Shown: in pieces, positions 392 through 21,596 of the stretch
How positions within the stretch are numbered: the stretch's first letter is position 1
Layout of the letters: each line of letters starts with the position of its first letter
Virus record (IMG/VR): IMGVR_UViG_3300031601_000045
Location: 1 to 21,596 of that record
Strand: one strand, 5' to 3'
From: a virus
Length of the DNA stretch: 21,596 nt
Notes under the pieces: model-generated
What the model saw: the letters and a program-made list of their open reading frames with translations, nothing else
The model's database searches: none
What the model was told of the DNA's origin: nothing
Program-made: the position numbers and the translations under genes

Positions 392-778
392 TTAGAATGT
401 TATTTCAACATTATCACCATCAACAGTAATTTCTTGAACAGTTATTTGTTGATTATTTGGTGTGTTTGTATTAATTTCTATTTTTTCAGGATCGTCAATT
501 AATAAAGTTTTTTCTTCTTTAATATCTTCATCATTATAGATAACAACAACATACTCAAGTTCAACTTTATGAACATCAATATAATATTCAATACCTTCAT
601 CGCCCATCCATTCAAATCTTAATTTCCAATATACAATAGCACTTAAATCTTCATAATCATCATATTTATATTTATCATCATGATTTGTATAATATATTTC
701 ATTATGAGATAAATTGGTTTTGAATTCAAAATCAGAAGTATTCATATCTTCAAGTATAAAATTGTTGAATTTTTTCAT
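392..778 (-). CDS. Candidate internal head protein with T4-type capsid-targeting leader
   Basis: The 128-residue product begins MKKFNNFILED. T4 internal proteins begin MKTYQEFIAE and are cut after Glu10 by the gp21 protease, whose rule is (Leu/Ile)-x-Glu. Here Phe7, Ile8 and Glu10 fall at the same positions, so cleavage after Glu10 is plausible. The rest is acidic with alternating beta-like stretches (IEYYIDVHKVELEYVVVIY at 63-81) and no recognised domain. The gene has its own AATATATAA-type promoter 15 bases upstream, very like the one before gp21. I infer a late, packaged head protein. The leader similarity is short and could be chance, and the body matches no family I know. Confidence 0.55.
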   Translation of the reverse strand: MKKFNNFILEDMNTSDFEFKTNLSHNEIYYTNHDDKYKYDDYEDLSAIVYWKLRFEWMGDEGIEYYIDVHKVELEYVVVIYNDEDIKEEKTLLIDDPEKIEINTNTPNNQQITVQEITVDGDNVEITF

Positions 779-792
779 TTATACTAATTTTT

Positions 793-806
793 CTTTTATA
801 TATTAA
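793..806 (-). promoter_or_regulatory. Putative late promoter for the 392-778 gene
   Basis: Read on the minus strand the sequence is TTAATATATAAAAG followed by AAAAAT, ending about 15 bases before the ATG. The stretch AATATATAAAAGAAAAAT is shared with the region just upstream of the gp21 gene (21271-21290). The T4 late consensus is TATAAATA; this motif is related but not identical. There is no -35-like element, as expected for gp55-type recognition. Confidence 0.5.
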
Positions 807-822
807 AAATAAAAATTATTTT

Positions 823-1575: not shown

Positions 1576-2424
1576 TTAAAATTCCCCTAATTCTTCTTTA
1601 TTAAGATTTAAAAAGTTTCCTAACTTATCAAGATTTTCTTTTGATAAAGATGTTATTTTTTTAAGTAGTTGTTTTTTTGCTTCTTCGTTACTTGAATTTT
1701 TCATTAATTTAGAAAGTTGATCAATATTTGAACTAACTTGTTTATTTGTATTCAATTTATTTTTAATTGGTTTTAATTTATCCCAAATCATACCATAGAT
1801 ATATTTAAACCATTCTTTTGATTTTTCTTTATAAGTATCTAATTTTTGAGATTTTTCATCTTGTGTTTGTGGCTCAGATTGTGGTTTATTTTGAGCCTGA
1901 ACTTGAATTGGTTGAGCCACATTTGATTGAGTAAATTCATCTGCTTCTTGTACTTTTTCTATTTTTTTAATACCAGCCATTTTTTCAATTTGTGGTATCA
2001 TATAATCTTTAACAAAAATTGGAATAGCATCAGAGAATTTATCTCTTTTCATATCCATTAAATTTTTAAGGTTTTTATCTTTTGCTTGTTCAAAAATATC
2101 AGCAAAATCTTTATCATCTAATTTTATTTGAATAGATTTAAGTGCGAAGTAAATTGCCTTTAAATTGTCGTTAAGTAATTTATTAATAGTTTCTTGACCT
2201 TCACTATTGTCAATTTTGGTATTTAATGAGTTTTGATTAGAAGATAGAAAATCCTCAAAGGTGTTGACTATTTTTAAATAATCAGTTTCATCATCAATTT
2301 TTTTAAATAATGTGCCTAATTCATTTTTTATATCTTCATCTGATTCATTAAAAAGTTTCATGTAAGTACTTTTAAAATCATCATAGAAATTCTCATTCAT
2401 GAATTCTAAATAATTATATAACAT
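1576..2424 (-). CDS. Candidate head-internal or scaffold-like charged helical protein
   Basis: A 282-residue, highly charged protein, almost entirely helix-forming (Lys, Glu, Asn, Leu), with a central Gln/Pro-rich linker at about 175-195 (VQAQNKPQSEPQTQ). It starts MLYNYLEFMNENF, which resembles the F-x-x-E leader of T4-type internal proteins, but Met replaces the Leu/Ile expected two before the Glu, so cleavage is less certain. Its ATG overlaps the stop of the upstream 327-residue gene (TAATG), so the two form one operon expressed from the motif at 3421-3440. I infer a late virion or core protein; no enzyme motif, membrane segment or known domain is visible. Confidence 0.5.
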   Translation of the reverse strand: MLYNYLEFMNENFYDDFKSTYMKLFNESDEDIKNELGTLFKKIDDETDYLKIVNTFEDFLSSNQNSLNTKIDNSEGQETINKLLNDNLKAIYFALKSIQIKLDDKDFADIFEQAKDKNLKNLMDMKRDKFSDAIPIFVKDYMIPQIEKMAGIKKIEKVQEADEFTQSNVAQPIQVQAQNKPQSEPQTQDEKSQKLDTYKEKSKEWFKYIYGMIWDKLKPIKNKLNTNKQVSSNIDQLSKLMKNSSNEEAKKQLLKKITSLSKENLDKLGNFLNLNKEELGEF

Positions 2425-3407
2425 TATGCTTGACTTTTTTGCATATTTTGTGGTTGACCTTCTTTTTGAACATTTTTATTTTTTTCAATTTGTTCTTCTT
2501 GTGGTTCTTCTACTTTTTTACCAATTTTATTTGTATAAGGATTTATTGTGACAATTTCGCCATTACTATTGGTTAGTTCTGCACTTTTAACTGTACCATC
2601 ATTTTCAATTTCTTTAACAGTAATTTCAACTTCATTACCTTCTGAATTAGTATAATTATATTTTTTATCTATTTCAAATGTTCTTTGTTCTTTATCACTA
2701 CTTTCCATCATTTGTTGTAATGTTTCAGTATTAGTTTTCATTTCTTTGGCAATTTGTGCTCGTTGTTTTTGAATATTAGCAATAGTTTTTTTGTCACCTA
2801 TTTTTGTGTAGTGTTCTTCCCATTGTTCAAAAATATGGTCACTAATTTGATTTTTTGCAAGTAGCAATGCTTGTTCTAATTTTTTAGATATTTTACCATC
2901 TTTACCAGTATATTTTTTCTTTAATGCTTCAATTTCATTATTAAAATTCTTTTTAAGTTCTTCAATATGTTTCTTAGAGACATTTATTTTACCTTTTAAT
3001 TGAGTTTTATCTAGATTATTTGTGTTATCTTCTTGTCCTGCTGTTTGTTTTTGATCTATAGGGTTAGGTTTTACATCTTCACCTTTTTGTTGTGATGTTG
3101 CAGGTTCACCATCATCCTCACTACTTGCGGCATATCCATCTTCTTCATAAATTTTTGATTCAATTGCGGCTTGAACATTTTTGTTTGCAGCAGATTTTGC
3201 ATTTTCAGCATTATTTAATCCTAAGAAAATCTTATTTATTTTATCTTTATAATCTTCTATTTTTTGTTTTAATTCTTTACCACCTTTTATTTTATCGTAA
3301 AGTTTACCAATACTTTTGAAGATGTTTTTTAAAAAGCTAAATAAACCTTCGTTTAATGATTGTTCTTTTATTAAAAGAAATTCTTGTTTTGTGTGTATAT
3401 TTTTCAT
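2424..3407 (-). CDS. Candidate head protein with cleavable leader and long coiled coil
   Basis: A 327-residue protein. The N-terminus reads MKNIHTKQEFLLIKEQSLNE then Gly21; both Ile13-Lys-Glu15 and Leu18-Asn-Glu20|Gly21 fit the T4 prohead protease rule (Leu/Ile-x-Glu before a small residue). Residues 21-70 are helical and Lys-rich, 95-135 are low-complexity and polar, 140-245 form a predicted long coiled coil (KKHIEELKKNFNNEIEAL onward), and 255-295 hold a small beta-like unit (YTNSEGNEVEITVKE). The end is Gln/Lys-rich. A late-type promoter motif precedes it. The arrangement fits a processed internal or scaffold protein; an unprocessed structural role is possible. Confidence 0.55.
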   Translation of the reverse strand: MKNIHTKQEFLLIKEQSLNEGLFSFLKNIFKSIGKLYDKIKGGKELKQKIEDYKDKINKIFLGLNNAENAKSAANKNVQAAIESKIYEEDGYAASSEDDGEPATSQQKGEDVKPNPIDQKQTAGQEDNTNNLDKTQLKGKINVSKKHIEELKKNFNNEIEALKKKYTGKDGKISKKLEQALLLAKNQISDHIFEQWEEHYTKIGDKKTIANIQKQRAQIAKEMKTNTETLQQMMESSDKEQRTFEIDKKYNYTNSEGNEVEITVKEIENDGTVKSAELTNSNGEIVTINPYTNKIGKKVEEPQEEQIEKNKNVQKEGQPQNMQKSQA

Positions 3408-3420
3408 GTGTGAATTTTTA

Positions 3421-3440
3421 CTTTTTATTATATATTAAAA
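3421..3440 (-). promoter_or_regulatory. Putative late promoter for the 3407-1576 operon
   Basis: On the minus strand the sequence is TTTTAATATATAATAAAAAG, ending about 14 bases before the ATG at 3407. It carries the same TTAATATATAA core as the sites before the portal and the 392-778 gene. Confidence 0.5.
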
Positions 3441-3461
3441 AGTAAAATTGAAAAATAAAAT

Positions 3462-4394
3462 TTAATGTTCCATATTTGTTGTAATATCTATACTACAAAT
3501 TTTTCCTGATCCACTATCATCTTTATTCTTAATATTACATGTATATGTTGTGTTTCGTGTTGGATATACAGTTTGTGATTTTTGATTGCTACTTACAAAG
3601 TTTGAATCATTAGATGCTGACCACAAATATTTATATTGCCATTTACCTTGAGTTGCTTCTACGGTTATTAAAACTTCCTTACCAGGACGAATATGTTCGC
3701 CCACATTTGCTGTCATTGTGGCTTGAATTTCTTTTGGATCAGCATTGACCCCAGGAACTGAAGTGTTGCCTAACAATTGTTTTACTTCACCAACCATAGA
3801 AATAATTGGAGTGACACCAGCTAATACATTATTAACCGCACCTAATGGCACATTTATAGATGAAACTGCGTTTTCAGGTAAAAGTAATGAAGCATATTTT
3901 AATGGGTCTAATATTGGTTGTAATTGATTTATTTTTGTTTGAAATGCTTGTAAACTTGAAAGTACACTTTGAACGGCAGAAAATGCAGTTGGTATACCTG
4001 CTCCTAGTGGCATAACTGCTACGGATGAACCGATTGTAACAAATGATGATATAGTTTCGGTTGTTAATTGTATGCTACCATCATAAATTTCTATATATTT
4101 AACTCCTAGTTGTTCAACTGAAGCTATTAGTTCTTTTTTTTTATCTTTTATCCATGTTCTTGTGGGGTGATTTTCAGGATAAGATTTGATAATTAGATCA
4201 GCAGTATCATCACCAATTCTTTCATCAGGATTATTACTACTTTGTTCTATTATCATAATTTTTAATACTTCATCTTCAGAAAGTAATTGTTCTTTGATAG
4301 TATTTGCATCGATTGGAGAACCTGGACTTTGTAATTTGTTAAGTTCTGATAATTTGGTATTTATAGCATATGTGTTGGCTTCAAATGGACCCAT
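3462..4394 (-). CDS. Virion-like protein with hydrophobic middle and Ig-like C-terminus
   Basis: A 310-residue protein, unusually rich in small and hydrophobic residues for this window. Residues 1-100 are polar and helical. Residues 110-210 are Ala/Val/Leu/Ser-rich (IGSSVAVMPLGAGIPTAF and similar), which could be membrane-active or packed helices rather than clear transmembrane spans. Residues 225-305 look like an Ig/PKD-type beta sandwich (ITVEATQGKWQYKYLW, then YPTRNTTYTCNIKNKD). Two Cys in this part (in TYTCNIK and GKICSID) are plausible strand partners. There is no signal peptide. The gene has its own TATATAAATA-containing promoter motif. A tail or baseplate-associated role is inferred; I do not recognise a named family. 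Confidence 0.5.
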   Translation of the reverse strand: MGPFEANTYAINTKLSELNKLQSPGSPIDANTIKEQLLSEDEVLKIMIIEQSSNNPDERIGDDTADLIIKSYPENHPTRTWIKDKKKELIASVEQLGVKYIEIYDGSIQLTTETISSFVTIGSSVAVMPLGAGIPTAFSAVQSVLSSLQAFQTKINQLQPILDPLKYASLLLPENAVSSINVPLGAVNNVLAGVTPIISMVGEVKQLLGNTSVPGVNADPKEIQATMTANVGEHIRPGKEVLITVEATQGKWQYKYLWSASNDSNFVSSNQKSQTVYPTRNTTYTCNIKNKDDSGSGKICSIDITTNMEH

Positions 4395-5720: not shown

Positions 5721-5740
5721 TTATCTATATATTATTTTTA
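5721..5740 (-). promoter_or_regulatory. Promoter-like AATATATAG motif upstream of 5703
   Basis: The minus strand reads TAAAAATAATATATAGATAA and ends 17 bases before the ATG at 5703. It overlaps the last codons of the 5725-6165 gene. The core has G instead of the usual final A, as at 16809-16820. Confidence 0.35.
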
Positions 5741-6165
5741 AGCATTTCTAATATTTTTAATATCTTTTGATTTTTCTTTATTTCTTCAAGTTTCATTTTT
5801 CGTTCTTCTTTAATGTCACCATATTTATAATCTATGTACATTAATGAACCTTTTGGTGCTGACATTGGTTGTACTGAAACTAACCCAGGCACATTTTCAT
5901 CATCAGGTAAAATAACATTCGGATTTTTGCCTTCTATTTGTCTTATTTTATTTAGTCTATTTTCTCGTAATTGTTGTATTTCGGATTTTTTTGTGCCACC
6001 CATTCCTATCATATGAGCAGAAACCTTTTGTATAATTGGTAATACACTTGAAAAATGTTTTGAGAATCCATTAGTAATTCCTGAACCTGGATATATTTGT
6101 GTGTTTTGTAATATGTTATTTTTATGTTGTTGGGTATATTGGTCTAACCATTTATTTTTTTTCAA
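5725..6165 (-). CDS. Small protein with gp23 (major capsid)-like segment
   Basis: A 146-residue protein. Residues 41-54 (VLPIIQKVSAHMIG) and 94-110 (GLVSVQPMSAPKGSLMY) resemble, in order, the T4 gp23 phrases MGMVRRAIPNLIAFDI and CGVQPMNSPTGQVFALR, which are nearly adjacent in gp23. Here an extra helical, basic stretch of about 40 residues separates them. The C-terminus has ERKMKLEEIKK, close to the local RKxKL tail, and an internal LRENRLNKI echoes it. Far too short to be a capsid protein (gp23 is about 520 residues). It may be a gp23-derived fragment reused as a small protein, or an unrelated protein with a shared motif. It overlaps the upstream methyltransferase gene by 14 bases. Confidence 0.5.
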   Translation of the reverse strand: MKKNKWLDQYTQQHKNNILQNTQIYPGSGITNGFSKHFSSVLPIIQKVSAHMIGMGGTKKSEIQQLRENRLNKIRQIEGKNPNVILPDDENVPGLVSVQPMSAPKGSLMYIDYKYGDIKEERKMKLEEIKKNQKILKILEMLKNNI

Positions 6166-7040: not shown

Positions 7041-8045
7041 TTATTCAAATTTTGGTGATATTGTATAACTTTTGAATCTTTTTATAATGTTCTGATTTAC
7101 AATATCTCCATCAATTTTAATATTTAACTTATTATCATCGATAATTTTAATTATATCACTTATCGTATAATTTGTTATGTGTGAATAATATTTTTCTGTT
7201 ATATTATTCACTTTAATAATCTCACCATCTATATCTATAATTATTTCATTTAAAGGTTTTAATATTTCGAAAATTAATATTTCAAATTTATCAAATTCTG
7301 TATTATTTCCACCAAATACCCAATATAAATCTTTGTCATCTTTTGTTTTTTTCAAATAATCAAAATCATCTATAAATTCAATTGTTGTATATATATCGTA
7401 ATTATCATTAACATCCTCCAATTTGATTGGTATATTTGAATCACAATTTTTTTTAATTTTGAATTGTGATTCATATTTTTTTATTAATTCCATTATATAT
7501 GTTTCTAACATTGTATCTTTTGATTTTAAATATTTTTCTAATGTTAAATTTTCAATTAAAGTATCAAAAAATGTATTTTTTATAGATATAAATGCAATAT
7601 AAATTAGTCGTTCATTTGGAAAATATTCAAAAACTATATCATTATTTTTTAAATATTTTTGGTGTTTTAGTAGAATGTTATCACTAATGAATGTGTCATA
7701 ATTAATGATATGTATTTGATTATATCCTTGATGTTTAAGAAATTTGATGGAATCTTTCCATTGATTCATAACTGCATATGAATAGTCTGGTTTAGGAAAG
7801 CTCAACAGTTTAAAAGCTGTAACATACCATTTCCAACGAATTATTACTTTGGAACCATTGGTTATAATTGGATTTGAAGAATTGTAGATATAATATTTGA
7901 CACTATTTTGTATATCTGAATCTAAGGGATAATGTGCATGTATTAATATGTCAATATTGAATCGGTTTAAATTCTGAATACATTTTTTTAATTCATCTAC
8001 TTTTTTTATTGTATCACAATAAGTTGTAATTACAAAACAATTCAT
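7041..8045 (-). CDS. Glycosyltransferase-like protein (GT-A type, tentative)
   Basis: A 334-residue protein. It starts MNCFVITTYCDTIKKVDELKKCI, the usual first strand and helix of a GT-A glycosyltransferase, and has HIINYDTFI near residue 125, where such enzymes place their metal-binding Asp. The phrase RWKWYVTAFKLLSFPKPDYSYAV lies before it. The C-terminal third (about 235-334) is a separate alternating-strand region, possibly a binding or assembly domain. Its ATG overlaps the stop of the upstream gene (ATGA), and a methyltransferase gene follows 31 bases downstream, so a small glycan-modifying unit is likely. The family is not certain because a classical DxD motif is absent. Confidence 0.5.
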   Translation of the reverse strand: MNCFVITTYCDTIKKVDELKKCIQNLNRFNIDILIHAHYPLDSDIQNSVKYYIYNSSNPIITNGSKVIIRWKWYVTAFKLLSFPKPDYSYAVMNQWKDSIKFLKHQGYNQIHIINYDTFISDNILLKHQKYLKNNDIVFEYFPNERLIYIAFISIKNTFFDTLIENLTLEKYLKSKDTMLETYIMELIKKYESQFKIKKNCDSNIPIKLEDVNDNYDIYTTIEFIDDFDYLKKTKDDKDLYWVFGGNNTEFDKFEILIFEILKPLNEIIIDIDGEIIKVNNITEKYYSHITNYTISDIIKIIDDNKLNIKIDGDIVNQNIIKRFKSYTISPKFE

Positions 8046-8275
8046 TTGTTATTAATTTTTTCTAACTTTATTTTTCTTAACCATTTGGTGTATATTTTTT
8101 CAATATCAATTATTTTTTCTTCTGAAAAATAAAAATCAAATGAATTATCTTTATTGGTGACATGATACATTTTATCCCCACTTTGTCCACCCCAACAATT
8201 TAGTTCTAGAGGTGATAATAATTTTTCTTTAATTTTGGCACTTTTGTCATTACTGCCTGTTGCTCCCCAAACCAT
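8042..8275 (-). CDS. Small unknown protein with RKIKL C-terminal tail
   Basis: A 77-residue protein starting MVWGATGSNDKSAKIKEKL, with a Trp/Gly-rich centre (ELNCWGGQSGDKMYHV) and short strands, ending WLRKIKLEKINNK, the recurring tail. It sits 4 bases downstream of the clamp-loader stop and overlaps the glycosyltransferase start by four bases, so it is translated between two larger genes. It matches no family I know. Confidence 0.7.
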   Translation of the reverse strand: MVWGATGSNDKSAKIKEKLLSPLELNCWGGQSGDKMYHVTNKDNSFDFYFSEEKIIDIEKIYTKWLRKIKLEKINNK

Positions 8276-9238: not shown

Positions 9239-9569
9239 ATCTATAATATTTGCAAAATTTCCAATTAAAACTATCACTTTCGCCACCATCTCGTAAAATA
9301 TAATCAAATATTTTGCCAATGATCGTACCACTTTCATCACCAAAAATATATTCTTTACTTGAATTTTCATCAAATGTAAAATTATTATTTTTTGCTGATT
9401 CTAATAATTCTTCAAAGGTGTTATTATAATCATAATTATCATTCCATTCAGTAACAAGTTGAGGATTTTCTTTAACAAAATCTACTAATGTTAATTTTTT
9501 AGAAGTTTTATTTTTTATAATAAAACTACTTGAACTGCTATTACTTACAAATCCGTTTCTAATTTTCAT
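9237..9569 (-). CDS. Protein with N-terminal SNSSSSSF motif, function unknown
   Basis: A 110-residue protein starting MKIRNGFVSNSSSSSFII. This N-terminal phrase is one I recall from many small proteins of phages and bacteria whose bodies differ; its role is not established as far as I know. The body is acidic (LVDFVKENPQLVTEWND, then FEELLESAKNNNF) and ends with SFNWKFCKYYR. It lacks the RKxKL tail of its neighbours. Its ATG lies inside the last codons of the upstream gene (11-base overlap) and its stop lies 24 bases before the gp44 start. Function unknown. Confidence 0.75.
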   Translation of the reverse strand: MKIRNGFVSNSSSSSFIIKNKTSKKLTLVDFVKENPQLVTEWNDNYDYNNTFEELLESAKNNNFTFDENSSKEYIFGDESGTIIGKIFDYILRDGGESDSFNWKFCKYYR

Positions 9570-9744
9570 TTCTTTCTATTTTATTTAATTTCAATTTTCG
9601 TTGTTCTCTTATTATTTCACCTTTTGTTCTGTAATTTGTCAGGTATTCTGAAAATCGTATTGATTTATCAAGATTTTTTGCAAAATAATTTGAAAATTGT
9701 ATTAAATTGTTTTTATTTTCATCAATATATTTTCTTTCATCCAT
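9559..9744 (-). CDS. Tiny unknown protein with RKLKL C-terminal tail
   Basis: A 61-residue helical, charged protein (MDERKYIDENKNNLIQF at the start), ending REQRKLKLNKIERNEN. The tail Arg is encoded CGA and the Lys-Leu pair AAA TTG AAA TTA, different from the AGA AAA GAA AAA TTA used elsewhere. The ATG of the next gene lies inside the tail. It follows the upstream gene by two bases. No family is recognised; a small DNA- or RNA-associated protein is possible from its basic end, but this is a guess. Confidence 0.65.
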   Translation of the reverse strand: MDERKYIDENKNNLIQFSNYFAKNLDKSIRFSEYLTNYRTKGEIIREQRKLKLNKIERNEN

Positions 9745-9746
9745 AA

Positions 9747-9953
9747 TTATTTCATTATCTGTTCTAATTTCTCTTTTCGTTCTTTTCTAAGTTTTTGTAC
9801 TCTTAAAAGATGTGAAAGTTCTTTTTTTAATTTATTTCTCTCATTTATCATATTTATTGAAATACTACCATAATTAGAATTTACCTCAAGTTTAATTGCA
9901 AAAATTCTTGATTGTAATCTATATATGTTACAGTTTAATTTTTTTGAGTTCAT
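9747..9953 (-). CDS. Tiny basic protein with RKEKL C-terminal tail
   Basis: A 68-residue protein starting MNSKKLNCNIYRLQSRIF, then a basic helix and the tail LRKERKEKLEQIMK (CGA AAA GAG AAA TTA). Its start lies within the tail of the upstream frameshifted gene. A stunted 12-codon relative of its N-terminus (MNSEKLNYKILR then stop) appears at the end of the 10588-10866 gene, within a 30-base direct repeat. It therefore looks like part of a duplicated and rearranged gene block. Product function unknown. Confidence 0.6.
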   Translation of the reverse strand: MNSKKLNCNIYRLQSRIFAIKLEVNSNYGSISINMINERNKLKKELSHLLRVQKLRKERKEKLEQIMK

Positions 9954-10240
9954 TTAATTTTAATTTTCTGTGTTCTTTAATACTAATAAAATATTCATAT
10001 AAGAAATTTAGATTATCCATTTTATATTGGGAAAATTCTTTACACCTATCATGTCCATTGTTGATAGTGTACCATTCTGAAGGTATATAATTATCTTTTA
10101 TGTTAAAAAAAGAATCAAAAATGTGTATTATAATCTGATATAAATTTGATAGAATCAATAGTGTATATTGAATCTTTCTTAAATAACAATTCATCATGAA
10201 CATAATCCTTACAACATATTATTTTATTACCTACTTTCAT
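9928..10240 (-). pseudogene. MKVG-family gene broken by a +1 frameshift
   Basis: The gene most likely starts at the ATG at 10240-10238, overlapping the stop of the upstream gene, and reads MKVGNKIICCKDYVHDELLF then KKDSIYTIDSIKF up to YNTHF and a TGA. Moving one base forward at the T5 run (A5 at 10117-10121 on the plus strand) continues as DSFFNIKDNYIPSEWY and on to FISIKEHRKLKLNELKKIKL. The joined product of about 103 residues has the same plan as its intact paralogue at 10588-10866. The span is 313 bases, one more than a multiple of three. The alternative start at 10203 gives an N-terminus unlike the family. It may be decay, a sequencing indel in a homopolymer, or regulated slippage. Confidence 0.65.
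9932..9961. repeat. 30-bp direct repeat, copy 1
   Basis: Matches 10592-10621 at 29 of 30 positions by eye; the copies lie 660 bases apart in the same orientation. Each covers the tail end of an RKxKL gene, from the tail Leu-Asn codons onward, including an internal ATG. In this copy that ATG opens the 9747-9953 gene. Confidence 0.8.
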
Positions 10241-10574
10241 TTTCAATTTTATTCAATTTTAATTTGCGAAATTCTTTTATAGTTAATAAATCATGTATAG
10301 ATATCTTTCTATTTTTTAATTTACAAATATTGAATTTAATAGTATCAAAATTATCATAATTTTTAAAAATATCATTTATACATTTTGCTTTCTCTTCACT
10401 ATTCATTTCCACATATTCATATTTATAGTTTCCTGCACCATAAACATTAAATTTAGACAATCCTTTATCATCATTAAAACTCTCCAAAGATATTATTTCA
10501 TCGAATTTTTCACATAATATGCATTTTGCCTTCCTACCAGAATCATATATTCGATATACAAATTTAAAGTTCAT
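10227..10574 (-). CDS. Small unknown protein with RKLKL C-terminal tail
   Basis: A 115-residue protein starting MNFKFVYRIYDSGRKAKCIL. It has a beta-rich first half (FNVYGAGNYKYEYVEM) and a helical second half, ending IKEFRKLKLNKIENESR. The tail Arg codon is CGC, unlike AGA in most siblings, which supports selection on the protein. The last codons carry the ATG of the frameshifted MKVG gene. It stands between two MKVG paralogues but lacks their N-terminal plan. I do not recognise a family. Confidence 0.7.
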   Translation of the reverse strand: MNFKFVYRIYDSGRKAKCILCEKFDEIISLESFNDDKGLSKFNVYGAGNYKYEYVEMNSEEKAKCINDIFKNYDNFDTIKFNICKLKNRKISIHDLLTIKEFRKLKLNKIENESR

Positions 10575-10587
10575 TTATCTTAATATT

Positions 10588-10866
10588 TTATAGTTTAATT
10601 TTTCTGAGTTCATTTAATTTTTCTTTTCTTTGAATTTTCAATTCATCAAAATATTTTTTATACCATTCACAAAAATAATCATCATATTCTTTTAAGTTGA
10701 ACCAAACACTATGTCCTTTAAAATTAATGCATAATTGTTTTTTATTTATTTCAATAATTTGATATAAATCACCTCTTATAGGATCAAACGTGCCAACAAT
10801 ACCATCACCACATTTTATATCTTTTTCAATACCTTTTTTACAATATAAATAATCACCTACTTTCAT
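10588..10866 (-). CDS. Intact MKVG-family small protein
   Basis: A 92-residue protein, the intact member of a local paralogue set. It starts MKVGDYLYCKKGIEKDI, then has a beta-strand series (DLYQIIEINKKQLCINF, VWFNLKEYDDYF) that fits a small barrel, then WYKKYF and a helix ending IQRKEKLNELRKIKL. The start overlaps the stop of the upstream paralogue (ATGTTATGA arrangement), suggesting coupled translation. The end carries the second copy of the 30-bp repeat. The MKVGD-C-K start is common among small phage proteins in my memory, but no function is attached to it. Confidence 0.75.
   Translation of the reverse strand: MKVGDYLYCKKGIEKDIKCGDGIVGTFDPIRGDLYQIIEINKKQLCINFKGHSVWFNLKEYDDYFCEWYKKYFDELKIQRKEKLNELRKIKL
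10592..10621. repeat. 30-bp direct repeat, copy 2
   Basis: Partner of 9932-9961 with one mismatch. Here the internal ATG opens only a 12-codon frame (MNSEKLNYKILR) that stops just before the start of the next gene, so this copy looks like the scar of a duplication or cassette exchange. Confidence 0.8.
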
Positions 10867-11098
10867 AACATAATATTTTCTAATTTCTTTTTTCGTAAAT
10901 GTTGTAAACTAATAAAAAAATTGTAAAAATAATAACCATGATAATACTTACTTGGTAAAAGAGCAAAAGAACATATTAAGTCTTTATCATTATAAATAGA
11001 ACAATAATTATAACCGATAAGAACAATAGTGTATAGTTTATCAATAGTTATATTCGAATTTTTGTCTTGATACATATAAAATTTTTACCTACTTTCAT
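10863..11098 (-). pseudogene. MKVG-family gene broken by a one-base deletion
   Basis: The family-type start is at 11098-11096, overlapping the end of the upstream gene: MKVGKNFICIK, then TKIRI and a stop. Restoring one A at the AA of 11067-11068 gives CIKDKNSNITIDKLYTIVLI, and the frame then runs to FYNFFISLQHLRKKKLENIML. The restored product of about 78 residues matches the family plan (MKVG, C-x-K, K-x-Y-T-I, F-x-x-F-F, RKxKL tail). The span is 236 bases, one short of a multiple of three. The internal ATG at 11075 gives a 70-residue product lacking the conserved start. Decay, sequencing indel or regulated slippage are all possible. Confidence 0.65.
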
Positions 11099-11300
11099 TT
11101 TTGTTTTTTATTTCATTTATTTTATTTAATTTTTCTTTACGTTCTTTTCTTAATAATTCTTTTTTAAGTTCTTTAGTTAAATCAGGCATAGTATTAGGAT
11201 ATAAAGATACATAATCAAATGATACTACTTTATAATCAGTAACTTCACCTTTATTGTTTACTTTGCCTATTCTTCTGGCGGATATACCAATTTTTCTCAT
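11085..11300 (-). CDS. Small unknown protein with RKEKL C-terminal tail
   Basis: A 71-residue protein starting MRKIGISARRIGKVNNKGEV, then VVSFDYVSLYPNTMPDL and a basic end LLRKERKEKLNKINEIKNK. The tail Arg is encoded CGT. The phrase FDYVSLYPNTM resembles motif A of family B DNA polymerases (DxxSLYP). It is only 71 residues, so it is not a polymerase; it could be a relic or a chance match. It is the first gene of the 11300-9237 run; upstream lies a terminator-like hairpin and an A+T-rich leader. Confidence 0.65.
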   Translation of the reverse strand: MRKIGISARRIGKVNNKGEVTDYKVVSFDYVSLYPNTMPDLTKELKKELLRKERKEKLNKINEIKNKNESR

Positions 11301-11696: not shown

Positions 11697-12002
11697 TTAA
11701 GATTTTCTTTTTATTTTTTTCAATTTTAATAATCTTAACACTTTTATAGGTGTAACTTCGACAACTTCATATTCATATGTTTCACATAAATATTTATCAA
11801 ACCCTGGTTGAAATAATCCCGCATTTAGTTTTTTTACAATTTTATCTACACTTTTTTTGTTTTTCCAATTTTGTGATATTTTAATATCTTGTGTTCTACT
11901 CTTTAATCTGTATCCTAAATCATATTTAATAAGTTCACTTACATAATAAGCGAAATTAGTTTGTGTTGTAAATTTTATTGTGTATGTTCTTTTTAAACCC
12001 AT
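11697..12002 (-). CDS. Small basic unknown protein
   Basis: A 101-residue protein starting MGLKRTYTIKFTTQTNFAYY, rich in Lys and aromatics. Strand-helix alternation (KRTYTIKF, then VSELIKYDLGYRL, then YEYEVVEVTPIKVL) suggests a small alpha/beta fold. It ends VLRLLKLKKIKRKS, a looser copy of the recurring tail (Arg-x-x-Lys-Leu-x-x-Ile). It is divergently transcribed from the gp15-like gene across a 33-base A+T-rich gap. Not recognised. Confidence 0.65.
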   Translation of the reverse strand: MGLKRTYTIKFTTQTNFAYYVSELIKYDLGYRLKSRTQDIKISQNWKNKKSVDKIVKKLNAGLFQPGFDKYLCETYEYEVVEVTPIKVLRLLKLKKIKRKS

Positions 12003-16823: not shown

Positions 16824-17090
16824 ATGGCTTTACAAGATTGGGTTAGACATGAAGGACCTGTGAATTCATCCCCGAATCCACAAAAATTTGATCATTTGAG
16901 TGATGATAAGTTTATTATGCTTGTGAGAGATATACAATATGATGATATTTCTAAGGGTAGAGTTCAACATTTTAATAGTTTATATGATGTTGCTATGTCG
17001 AATCCTGGTAGTTATATTAATATAAATAATAATTATGAATTACATCAAAACCCACCTGATCCAAATGTTGTTAATCAGTATAAAAAATAA
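16824..17090 (+). CDS. Small unknown protein heading the late operon
   Basis: An 88-residue protein starting MALQDWVRHEGPVNSSPNPQ with a helical middle (DDKFIMLVRDIQYDD) and an Asn/Pro-rich end (HQNPPDPNVVNQYKK). It is the first gene on the plus strand after the HNH gene and is followed after 8 bases by a tiny gene and then gp4. The polar, Pro-rich nature fits a small virion or baseplate-associated protein, but I recognise no family. A start at ATGGC is preceded by an A+T-rich late-type motif. Confidence 0.65.
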   Translation: MALQDWVRHEGPVNSSPNPQKFDHLSDDKFIMLVRDIQYDDISKGRVQHFNSLYDVAMSNPGSYININNNYELHQNPPDPNVVNQYKK

Positions 17091-17098
17091 ATTTTACT

Positions 17099-17257
17099 AT
17101 GATTGATAAGTTGAACAAAGATGATATAATAAGAGTAGAGAAAGCAAGAAAGATATATAACGAAAAGACTATCAATGAACTTTTAAGTGATAAAGAAGCA
17201 AATAAATTAAGAAAAGAGAAATTAAAAAAGATAGAGAATGATCAGAAAAATAAATAA
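17099..17257 (+). CDS. Tiny helical protein with RKEKL tail in the late operon
   Basis: A 52-residue frame from the ATG at 17099, fitting neatly between two real genes (8 and 21 bases). It reads MIDKLNKDDIIRVEKARKIY and ends NKLRKEKLKKIENDQKNK, the same C-terminal tail seen on the minus-strand small genes, here encoded AGA AAA GAG AAA TTA. It is charged, probably one or two helices. Finding the tail on the other strand, beside head genes, shows it is not confined to one gene block. Function unknown. Confidence 0.6.
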   Translation: MIDKLNKDDIIRVEKARKIYNEKTINELLSDKEANKLRKEKLKKIENDQKNK

Positions 17258-18901: not shown

Positions 18902-18922
18902 TATTTAATATATAATTGAAAA
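18902..18922 (+). promoter_or_regulatory. Putative late promoter for portal
   Basis: TATTTAATATATAATTGAAA contains the same TTAATATATAA core as the sites at 793 and 3421, ending about 14 bases before the portal ATG at 18936. Confidence 0.55.
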
Positions 18923-18935
18923 TTAAATAAATTTA

Positions 18936-20699
18936 ATGGCTAATCGACTTAATGAATCAACATACAATAGATATAATCAACCTAATTCAATGTATGAATT
19001 TGGCAGAACTCCGAATAGAACATTTACAAATAAACTTCTTAGACGTTTATCACAATGGGGTCAAGATACTGATGATATGATTGTTAGAAATAGTCAAGCA
19101 ATAGGTGCCTTTGAGGATACTGATAATATAATTAATGATCCTGGTACTAATATGTATGATTTATTTACTAAGAAAATTATATCTAAATTCCTTGAACAGA
19201 AATCAATAGCATACTTAGATAGAAAATATTTAGATAAAAGAAAAATATTAAGACAATACTCGATTAAGGAGGAGATTAAAGATTTTATTACGAGAATATC
19301 TGATGAGACAATTATTTATAATGATAATAATTATTTTTGTAATATGGCAGATTTACCTGAATCTTATGATCAGACAATAAGGGATAAATTTCAGGAAAAT
19401 TTCAGGAAAATTTATAATTCATTTGGTTTTAATGATGGTGTAAAAGCATGGAACTTTTTGAAACATTTTCTTATAGATGGATTTATGGCATTTGAAATAG
19501 TATATGATGATAAACAGAAAAATATTATAGATTTAAATTTATTAGACCCATTAACACTTATAATTGCTACTGAACCAGGTAGTTCAACATTAGTTTGGAT
19601 TCAAAACCCAGATGTTCCAACATTGAGAAGAGTATTATTAGATACAAATATTATATATCTTTCATATTCAAATAATATGGAATATGATGAAACATCATAT
19701 GTTGAGAGTTTGATTAAACCTTATAATGAACTTAAGTTGTTAGAACAAACAAGATTAATGTATAATATTAATCAAGCTGCAATTTATAAAAAGTTTATTA
19801 TTCCAGTTGGAGGGTTAACCCGACAACAAGCGGAACAGCAGATATTACAATTAATGTCTGAATATCATGAAGATATAGAATGGGATAATAGAACTGGAGA
19901 AGTTTATATTAACGGTTCAACTAAAATTCCACATTCAAAAGATTATTGGTTTCCATCATCAGATCAGGGTCAACCTGAGATGTCAATTGAACAACCACAA
20001 CAATCATCTTTAAATGAAGATGAAGTTTTACAATGGTTTTTTAGAAATTTTAAAAGAGCTTCAAAATTGCCTTTCAGCCGTTTTGAAGAAGAATCTGGTG
20101 GTGGTGGTTTTTATGATGATACTGCGAATATTACAAGAGATGAAATTCGATTTAAAAACTTTATCACAAGAATTAGAACTATGTTTAAAGAATTGATAAT
20201 TAAACCATTACAAATTCAAATGGTATTAGATTTTCCTGAATTAATAGATGATAAATTATTTGAAACTTTTGTAAGAATTGAATTCAATTCTAATGACTTA
20301 TTTGAAGAATGGAAATTTCTAAATAATTTGGCAAAGAGATCTGAAATCGCATCAACATTATCATCTAATTTACAGGATGGTGAAGGTACTCCTTATTTAA
20401 GTATTGAGTGGATTGTTAGAAATATTATGAAATTTACAGATGCTGATATCGCTGAAAATGAAAAATATAAACTACGTGGTGGTTCTGCTGGTGAAGGTGG
20501 TGGAGCAAGTGGTCCAGGTGGTGAAGGTGGCGGAGATGACTTTGGTGGCGGCGAAGGAGACTTTGGTGGCGGCGAAGGAGACTTTGGTGGCGGTCAAGAA
20601 GAGTTTGGTGGTGGACAAGAAGAGTTTGGTGGACAAGAAGAAGGTGGTGGAGAAGGTGGAGGTCAATCACAAGGTGAAGGACCTCAAGCACAATTTTAA
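18936..20699 (+). CDS. 20: Portal vertex protein (gp20)
   Basis: A 587-residue protein; T4 gp20 has 524. The portal ring starts prohead assembly and is the DNA entry channel. Family marks: DEFL-type early helices, the FLIDGFMAFEIVYDDKQKNI region (about 180-200), LLDPLTLIIATEP, the LEQTRLMYNINQAAIYKKFI stretch, RQQAEQQILQLM, and NITRDEIRFKNFITRIRTMF (about 407-426) before the C-terminal crown. The added residues are mainly a Gly-rich, acidic C-terminal tail (about 508-587) built from 21-base repeats. It is followed after 16 bases by an acidic core-like protein and then gp21, the T4 order. Confidence 0.93.
   Translation: MANRLNESTYNRYNQPNSMYEFGRTPNRTFTNKLLRRLSQWGQDTDDMIVRNSQAIGAFEDTDNIINDPGTNMYDLFTKKIISKFLEQKSIAYLDRKYLDKRKILRQYSIKEEIKDFITRISDETIIYNDNNYFCNMADLPESYDQTIRDKFQENFRKIYNSFGFNDGVKAWNFLKHFLIDGFMAFEIVYDDKQKNIIDLNLLDPLTLIIATEPGSSTLVWIQNPDVPTLRRVLLDTNIIYLSYSNNMEYDETSYVESLIKPYNELKLLEQTRLMYNINQAAIYKKFIIPVGGLTRQQAEQQILQLMSEYHEDIEWDNRTGEVYINGSTKIPHSKDYWFPSSDQGQPEMSIEQPQQSSLNEDEVLQWFFRNFKRASKLPFSRFEEESGGGGFYDDTANITRDEIRFKNFITRIRTMFKELIIKPLQIQMVLDFPELIDDKLFETFVRIEFNSNDLFEEWKFLNNLAKRSEIASTLSSNLQDGEGTPYLSIEWIVRNIMKFTDADIAENEKYKLRGGSAGEGGGASGPGGEGGGDDFGGGEGDFGGGEGDFGGGQEEFGGGQEEFGGQEEGGGEGGGQSQGEGPQAQF
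20538..20639 (+). repeat. Five 21-bp coding repeats in the portal tail
   Basis: Units start at 20538, 20559, 20580, 20601 and 20622. The first two are identical (GACTTTGGTGGCGGCGAAGG plus A); later ones drift to GAGTTTGGTGGTGGACAAGA plus A, and the last lacks three bases. They encode (Asp/Glu)-Phe-Gly-Gly-Gly-(Glu/Gln)-(Gly/Glu). The tract is far more G-rich than anything else in the window. Confidence 0.9.
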
Positions 20700-21301: not shown

Positions 21302-21596
21302 ATGTCAAAAAAACCTGTTCTAATTATCGAACATTGTTTGGATGGCTTAACTTCCATAAACGAAGAAGCGAAAAAACAAGGTAATTATATATTAGGCGGT
21401 ACTTTTACGGAATTTGACGTAAAGAATCGAAATGATAGAATATATACTGCTGAAAAATTTCTTCCACACCTTGAAGAACTTAATAATCGAAAATCGCAAT
21501 TAGGTGTAGTTTATGGTGAGTTTGATCACCCAGACGTATTTGATACATCCTTATCTAGAGTTTCCCATTTAATTGAAAGTATAAATTTTAACAAAG
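21302..21596 (+). CDS. 21: Prohead core protease (gp21), N-terminal part
   Basis: The first 98 residues of a gp21-type serine protease (family S80), cut by the window end. Conserved phrases: YILGGTFTEFDVKNRNDRIY (T4: YIEGIFMQAEVVNRNKRLY), then LGVVYGEFDHPDVFD (T4: LTKQALGELNHP), where the His of EFDHP corresponds to the catalytic His, followed by SRVSHLIESINF. The catalytic Ser region lies beyond the window. T4 gp21 processes the head core and capsid proteins after Leu/Ile-x-Glu. The start at ATGTCAAAA is preceded by an A-rich leader and the promoter motif. Confidence 0.92.
   Translation, partial: MSKKPVLIIEHCLDGLTSINEEAKKQGNYILGGTFTEFDVKNRNDRIYTAEKFLPHLEELNNRKSQLGVVYGEFDHPDVFDTSLSRVSHLIESINFNK

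Follow-up and report, generated by a model that had tools for sequence, protein, structure and literature searches.

The stretch of DNA analysed here (the window) makes up a virus record of its own, 21.6 kb long, and its sequence marks it as part of a T4-type megaphage. Its nearest contig, G001 (27.3 kb), has a portal protein 96% identical to that of the window and is largely collinear with it in gene content. Genomes of 634, 636, 642 and 735 kb have been assigned to the Mahaphage clade, and their hosts are predicted to be Bacteroidetes (PMC7162821); we take LR756501 (735 kb) and LR745206 to belong to the Mahaphage genomes of that study. The window features considered here are as follows.

392-778, minus strand: gene for a 128-aa leader-bearing protein (open reading frame with ATG start; leader kept in the homologue G001:21883-22293)
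749-778, minus strand: putative leader MKKFNNFILE, codons 1-10, predicted cut Glu10/Asp11 (match to the T4 capsid-targeting sequence; N-terminal motif enrichment in related phages)
797-807, minus strand: promoter-like TTTAATATATA, perfect, upstream of 392-778 (conserved in G001)
1576-2424, minus strand: second leader gene, MLYNYLEFMNE then N, 282 aa (strict leader rule)
2424-3407, minus strand: third leader gene, long leader MKNIHTKQEFLLIKEQSLNE then G, 327 aa (homologues retain the leader end)
3429-3439, minus strand: promoter-like TTTAATATATA upstream of 2424-3407 (identical to the 797-807 element)
18904-18914, plus strand: promoter-like TTTAATATATA upstream of the portal gene (identical to the 797-807 element)
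18936-20699, plus strand: portal protein, T4 gp20 family (PHROG 213, E = 1.5e-59; 62% identical to the LR756501 portal)
21302-21596, plus strand: start of a gp21-type prohead protease, truncated where the window ends (Peptidase_S77 match; reading frame with GEFDHP; full-length relatives)

A T4-like N-terminus

The 392-778 protein begins MKKFNNFILEDMNTSDF, and the T4 record gives the N-termini of the internal proteins IPII and IPIII as MKTYQEFIAE then A. The ungapped alignment of the two leaders proposed in a first-pass annotation of this DNA holds, with M1, K2, F7, I8 and E10 identical and F4 opposite Y4. Suppressor analysis of the T4 IPIII capsid-targeting sequence (CTS) has tied targeting mainly to residues 4 and 7 and processing to residues 8 and 10 (PMC9026906), and the window leader agrees with T4 at all four of these functionally tested positions. 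Thus the aromatic pair linked to targeting lies within a leader of about ten residues (F4 and F7), and I8-L9-E10 reproduces the (I/L)xE form of the cut site, which is kept in the G001 homologue. The Asp at P1' counts against the T4-type reading, since it is uncommon at this position (7 of 112 leader proteins among the IMG/VR matches listed), although the G001 homologue has Gly there.

The likeness to IPII and IPIII thus takes in a ten-residue leader ending FIxE, with aromatics at 4 and 7, I8 and E10, a small protein and a gp21-type protease in the genome; the differences are an unrelated, acidic body, Asp after the cut site and, in relatives of the window, a protease fused to the scaffold.

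Only one homologue of the 392-778 protein was found, the 136-aa product of G001:21883-22293 (57% identity), and the relatives other than G001 lack one. Its N-terminus reads MKKFKNFILE then G, so that the leader is identical at 9 of 10 residues as against 57% for the whole protein. The 5' flank of the gene is also very conserved in G001 at the DNA level and, because this upstream DNA is as conserved as the leader, leader conservation within the pair is weak evidence when taken alone.

Neighbouring genes and a promoter-like element

Genes 1576-2424 and 2424-3407 sit a short way upstream of 392-778 in the direction of transcription. The G001 counterpart of the former starts MLYKYLEFINE then S, and its distant homologues in G014, G021 and G022 retain an N-terminal stretch ending in Glu. 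Homologues of the latter close a leader of 20-22 residues with NE then GL, a length that recalls T4 IPI (MKTFKEFTSTTTPVSTITE then A). For both genes, distant homologues keep the E-ending leader while their bodies diverge.

Adjoining these genes is a 310-aa protein (3462-4394, minus strand) with a weak C-terminal Ig-like/Hoc-like match (phrog_2973, E = 0.042; Ig_3, E = 0.0052). Elsewhere in the window, a small protein (5725-6165, minus strand; also G001:15674-16162) has a weak match to T4 gp23 (phrog_138, E = 0.0077; PF07068, E = 0.0055).

The first-pass annotation had assigned a late-type promoter to gene 392-778. What stands is that an identical TTTAATATATA element precedes this gene and the portal gene, as well as the gene at 16824; what does not is a promoter of T4 type, as the T4 late consensus TATAAATA was not found upstream of 392-778. 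Nor was TATAAATA enriched before the leader genes of LR756501. Taken alone and with one mismatch allowed, the 11-mer TTTAATATATA shows no excess within the window; in the clade, roughly one ORF in four has its core, [AT]ATATATA, no more than 45 bases upstream, as against 9 of 702 in-gene stretches.

Leader enrichment across phages

ORFs were called mechanically and overlap-filtered, the megaphage genomes being unannotated metagenome assemblies; LR756500 was taken as its first 400 kb and phiKZ as its first 280 kb. The first leader rule specified an aromatic or hydrophobic residue ([FYLIM] at position 4), two residues, F or Y, an aliphatic residue, any residue and E, and the strict rule [FY]xx[FY][ILVM]xE near the N-terminus. 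Shuffling of residues 2-26 served as the control.

Counting leader-like N-termini, which are not proven cargo, the first rule matched 64 of 1015 ORFs in LR756501 (shuffle mean 7.9, maximum 17), 25 of 538 in LR756500 (mean 5.0, maximum 13) and 21 of 940 in LR745206 (mean 7.9, maximum 17). The T4 control gave three matches among 265 ORFs, namely IPII, IPIII and gp61.1, and there was no excess in phiKZ (3 versus 1.5 in shuffles) or RaK2 (1 versus 4.0). For single small contigs this rule was too loose, G001 and G025 lying near background, and the strict rule was therefore applied to the window. It returned two of 35 window ORFs where shuffles gave 0.1, and it also exceeded expectation in LR756501 (51 versus 1.5), LR745206 (20 versus 1.3) and LR756500 (20 versus 0.9). 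By the combined rules, about 80 of the 1015 LR756501 ORFs bear leaders.

In these megaphages the enrichment of the leader is strong at N-termini and is not seen elsewhere in proteins. In a pool of the window with eight related contigs or genomes, matches to a closely similar pattern were concentrated at residues 2-9, with rates per 1000 of 3.8, 8.8 and 6.0 in the bins from residues 2, 4 and 6 (zero-based) as against 0.36 past residue 200. Among LR756501 leader matches, 32 of 64 have A, S or G after the Glu, compared with 16 of 119 internal matches (Fisher p = 1.7e-7). Each phage also has its own stereotyped leader: M(I)KKYxxFINE then A or S in LR756501, MIIKKYIKFIKE then S in LR745206 and MKYIKEYEDFINE then A in LR756500. 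A second form (type B; MKYLKTYKIFE then S, or MIKKFKLFE then S), found post hoc and thus exploratory, occurs 26 times in LR745206 (3.5 expected), 23 times in LR756501 (3.5) and 14 times in G025 (0.8); both forms terminate in (I/L)xE.

These counts bear on whether the leader-like start is a simple accident of a low-GC gene in which K, F, N and I abound. Such residues are frequent throughout this low-GC genome, and conservation of the upstream DNA takes weight from the leader match between the window and G001. Such a coincidence nevertheless seems very improbable, given two strict-rule ORFs in the window, N-terminal enrichment throughout the clade and neighbouring genes that retain their leaders while their bodies diverge; we take the match to be more than chance.

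As with a CTS, one leader is found on unrelated bodies: BLAST sorts the 64 LR756501 leader proteins into 47 body families, and the window has its two further leader genes. Among the LR756501 carriers are a methyltransferase, a DeoC-type aldolase and a PPK2 (E = 1.1e-76) whose domain is preceded by 165 residues. Since the leader sits on dozens of unrelated megaphage proteins, it would be a general loading tag rather than a feature of the 392-778 family alone.

Prohead protease and scaffold

A gp21-type prohead protease (Peptidase_S77) is present in the window and in almost every related record searched; it was not found in phiKZ or crAss001. Profile matches are modest (8.4e-5 in G001, and below the Pfam cut-off there and in most other records), but the motifs GEFDHP and VSSRAAG have GELNHP and VSSRG as their T4 counterparts. 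The megaphage protease ORF spans 635-819 aa and joins the protease to a scaffold-like part, which in most megaphages contains many YSEYIAENLDKSI repeats with a core that resembles the leaders.

In G001 the fusion lies at 1940-4384, with homologues in LR756501, LR745206, G013, G021, G022 and G025; it holds some 6-14 tandem YSEYIAENLDKSI repeats, each with an (I/L)xE site. With a profile made from each phage's own scaffold repeats, N-termini clearly outscored internal stretches in LR756501 and G021, and did so weakly or not at all in the others. That the leader may be a detached scaffold repeat is accordingly put forward only as a suggestion, the profile being unconvincing outside those two.

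Two further sets of small proteins touch on this system. A 61-aa window protein (9559-9744, minus strand) contains the scaffold repeat twice (QFSNYFAKNLDKSIRFSEYLTNY), with Lys or Asn in place of the cut-site Glu, and ends in a motif of the RKxKLxxI type; it is possibly an uncleavable scaffold mimic. Short gp21 paralogues in LR756501 (11314-11850, minus strand) and LR756500 (154840-155244, minus strand) seemingly lack the catalytic His/Ser motifs (GELGYP/FRPR and GELYNP/GIRS, respectively) and could perhaps act as protease regulators.

The same leader on known or probable head proteins elsewhere

When IMG/VR was scanned for the pattern MKK[FY]xxFIxE, at least 119 stretches were found. Among the matches listed, 112 of 127 open an ORF and are followed by a body of 40 aa or more; these comprise 46 body families. 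We regard proteins with this leader type elsewhere as known or probable virion cargo.

One of them, L316:2774-3727, begins MKKYEEFIAE then S and is an Alt-like ADP-ribosyltransferase (PHROG 802, E = 3e-11). T4 Alt is itself packaged in the head, trimmed and injected; it is cut at ITE-6 and at its C-terminus, unlike the 392-778 protein, which has no similarity to ADP-ribosyltransferases. Another, from L322, matches the 'internal head protein' family PHROG 2667 (5.8e-5), starting at its residue 1. It is the last of four tandem genes (L322:3821-5398) that have a common leader, MKKYNQFINE, and different bodies.

Many of the listed IMG/VR matches are cyanophage cytidylyltransferases. The 387-aa cytidylyltransferase SSM1_190 of cyanophage S-SM1 (gene cluster 190) starts MKKFSAFLNE then A; it has the same leader form as the 392-778 protein on an unrelated enzyme body. 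Mass spectrometry of purified S-SM1 virions detected this cluster, T4-GC190 (PMC3037559). The virion proteomes of other cyanophages repeatedly contain NMNAT/cytidylyltransferase proteins (PMC10665884, PMC9602691), with the caveat that co-purification cannot be excluded (PMC10665884). Beyond T4 reviews, a search of open-access papers yielded none tying CTS leaders to cyanophages or megaphages.

T4 itself offers gp61.1 (18966-19130, minus strand; 54 aa), with the CTS-like start MKTFKEFIKE then D, of which a limited literature check found no mention. It has the leader form of the 392-778 protein, including Asp after the Glu, on a shorter and unrelated body. In phiKZ-type giant phages such as SPN3US, many head proteins are trimmed after Glu and ejected; the SPN3US-type ejection proteins have mostly long propeptides, as against the ten-residue aromatic leader seen here.

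The leader might instead be a general N-terminal signal that sorts proteins to some non-head site, such as a replication compartment or the membrane, its likeness to T4 being convergent. The very large number of carriers in LR756501 would suit such a signal, as would the metabolic enzymes among them. We judge it improbable all the same: small residues follow the Glu as they would at a cleaved site, a gp21-type protease is present, the identical leader form occurs in the cyanophage virion cluster and on Alt-like and internal-head-type proteins, and phiKZ builds a replication nucleus yet has no such leader.

The body of the 392-778 protein

The claim that the body is unlike known ones is confirmed: it has no relative in PHROGs, Pfam or PDB sequences, the protein has no match at E ≤ 10 among annotated phages, and IMG/VR holds no relative besides the G001 homologue. 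By the same PHROG, Pfam and phage searches it has no homology to IPI, IPII or IPIII. The AlphaFold model, built from two input sequences, is poor (pLDDT 59), and a Foldseek search with it gave no significant match, so no function was read off the structure.

T4-related internal proteins are described as basic. By contrast, the mature body here would be strongly acidic, with a pI of about 4.1 and 30 D+E against 9 K+R, and is thus not a small basic protein of the T4 internal type.

Prohead core proteins such as T4 gp67 and gp68 are cut up and lost on maturation. The 392-778 protein could likewise be a leader-targeted core component, either cut up and lost or serving as structural filler, and never an injected effector. 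Its leader would then look identical, its acidic body lies nearer to the acidic core proteins than to basic internal proteins, and it has two leader-bearing neighbours (1576-3407) in a group near the weakly Hoc-like gene. Nonetheless, between the window and G001 the protein is only 57% identical where the portal is 96% identical, and its gene is absent from the other relatives, neither of which is expected of a core scaffold part; we consider this alternative unlikely. The fast divergence fits cargo under changing selection, as read from this pair of sequences, rather than a core structural part.

Proposed role

By analogy with T4, the most likely account of the 392-778 protein has it loaded into the prohead, cut after Glu10 and later injected. 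For packaging and trimming of the leader we would put the probability at roughly 0.7. The T4-type interpretation in the first-pass annotation is partly supported: in its favour are the CTS positions, the homologue, the leader-bearing neighbours, the wider leader family, the gp21-type protease and, in part, the promoter. Counting against packaging are the very large number of leader-bearing proteins for a head cargo, an acidic body where T4-related internal proteins are basic, and a single homologue whose upstream DNA is equally conserved.

As in T4, where residues 4 and 7 serve targeting, the first ten residues would bind the assembling prohead core through F4 and F7. The gp21-type protease, scaffold-fused in these phages, would then cut after Ile-Leu-Glu10 within the prohead, so that the mature protein would begin at Asp11; here the gene and the site motif are seen and the cut is predicted from them. 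The acidic body of about 118 residues would remain in the head with the DNA and, if T4 is a guide, enter the host at infection. An anti-restriction or effector role, raised in the first-pass annotation, is a guess by analogy, and counter-defence in particular is doubtful.

More broadly, we see even odds that Mahaphage-type megaphages have greatly expanded T4-style head loading. On such a scheme, some 55-75 unrelated leader proteins in the 735-kb phage, a PPK2-type polyphosphate kinase and a methyltransferase among them, would carry short, phage-specific leaders read by, and possibly derived from, the protease-scaffold fusion with its leader-like YSEYIAENLDKSI repeats, and a large preloaded proteome, the 392-778 protein included, would be delivered to the host. 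If this is true, a short leader recognised purely in the sequence flags packaged, injected genes among the unknowns of uncultured megaphages, and a large part of their uncharacterised proteome becomes testable head cargo. It would also suggest that the largest phages bring many ready-made proteins into the host, and would narrow down the candidates for counter-defence or host takeover; the leader joined to a reporter in T4 would offer a simple test bed.

Other recurrent motifs

In LR756501 the motif DPYGEExW occurs in 105 copies in 90 proteins (for example 474651-476339 and 552104-560466), often 2-3 residues from the C-terminus. Its codons vary synonymously, with 78 distinct DNA versions among 99, and it is enriched in leader-bearing proteins (24 of 90, compared with 57 of 925; p = 1e-8).

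Within the window, 13 of 35 ORFs end in the C-terminal motif RKxKLxxI, as against 0.2 by shuffles and with none mid-protein. Its locations include 823-1541, 8042-8275, 9559-11300, 11697-12002 and 17099-17257. The promoter-like core [AT]ATATATA rarely lies upstream of such genes (4 of 44), and RKxKLxxI C-termini are also present in G001, G025, G021 and LR745206.
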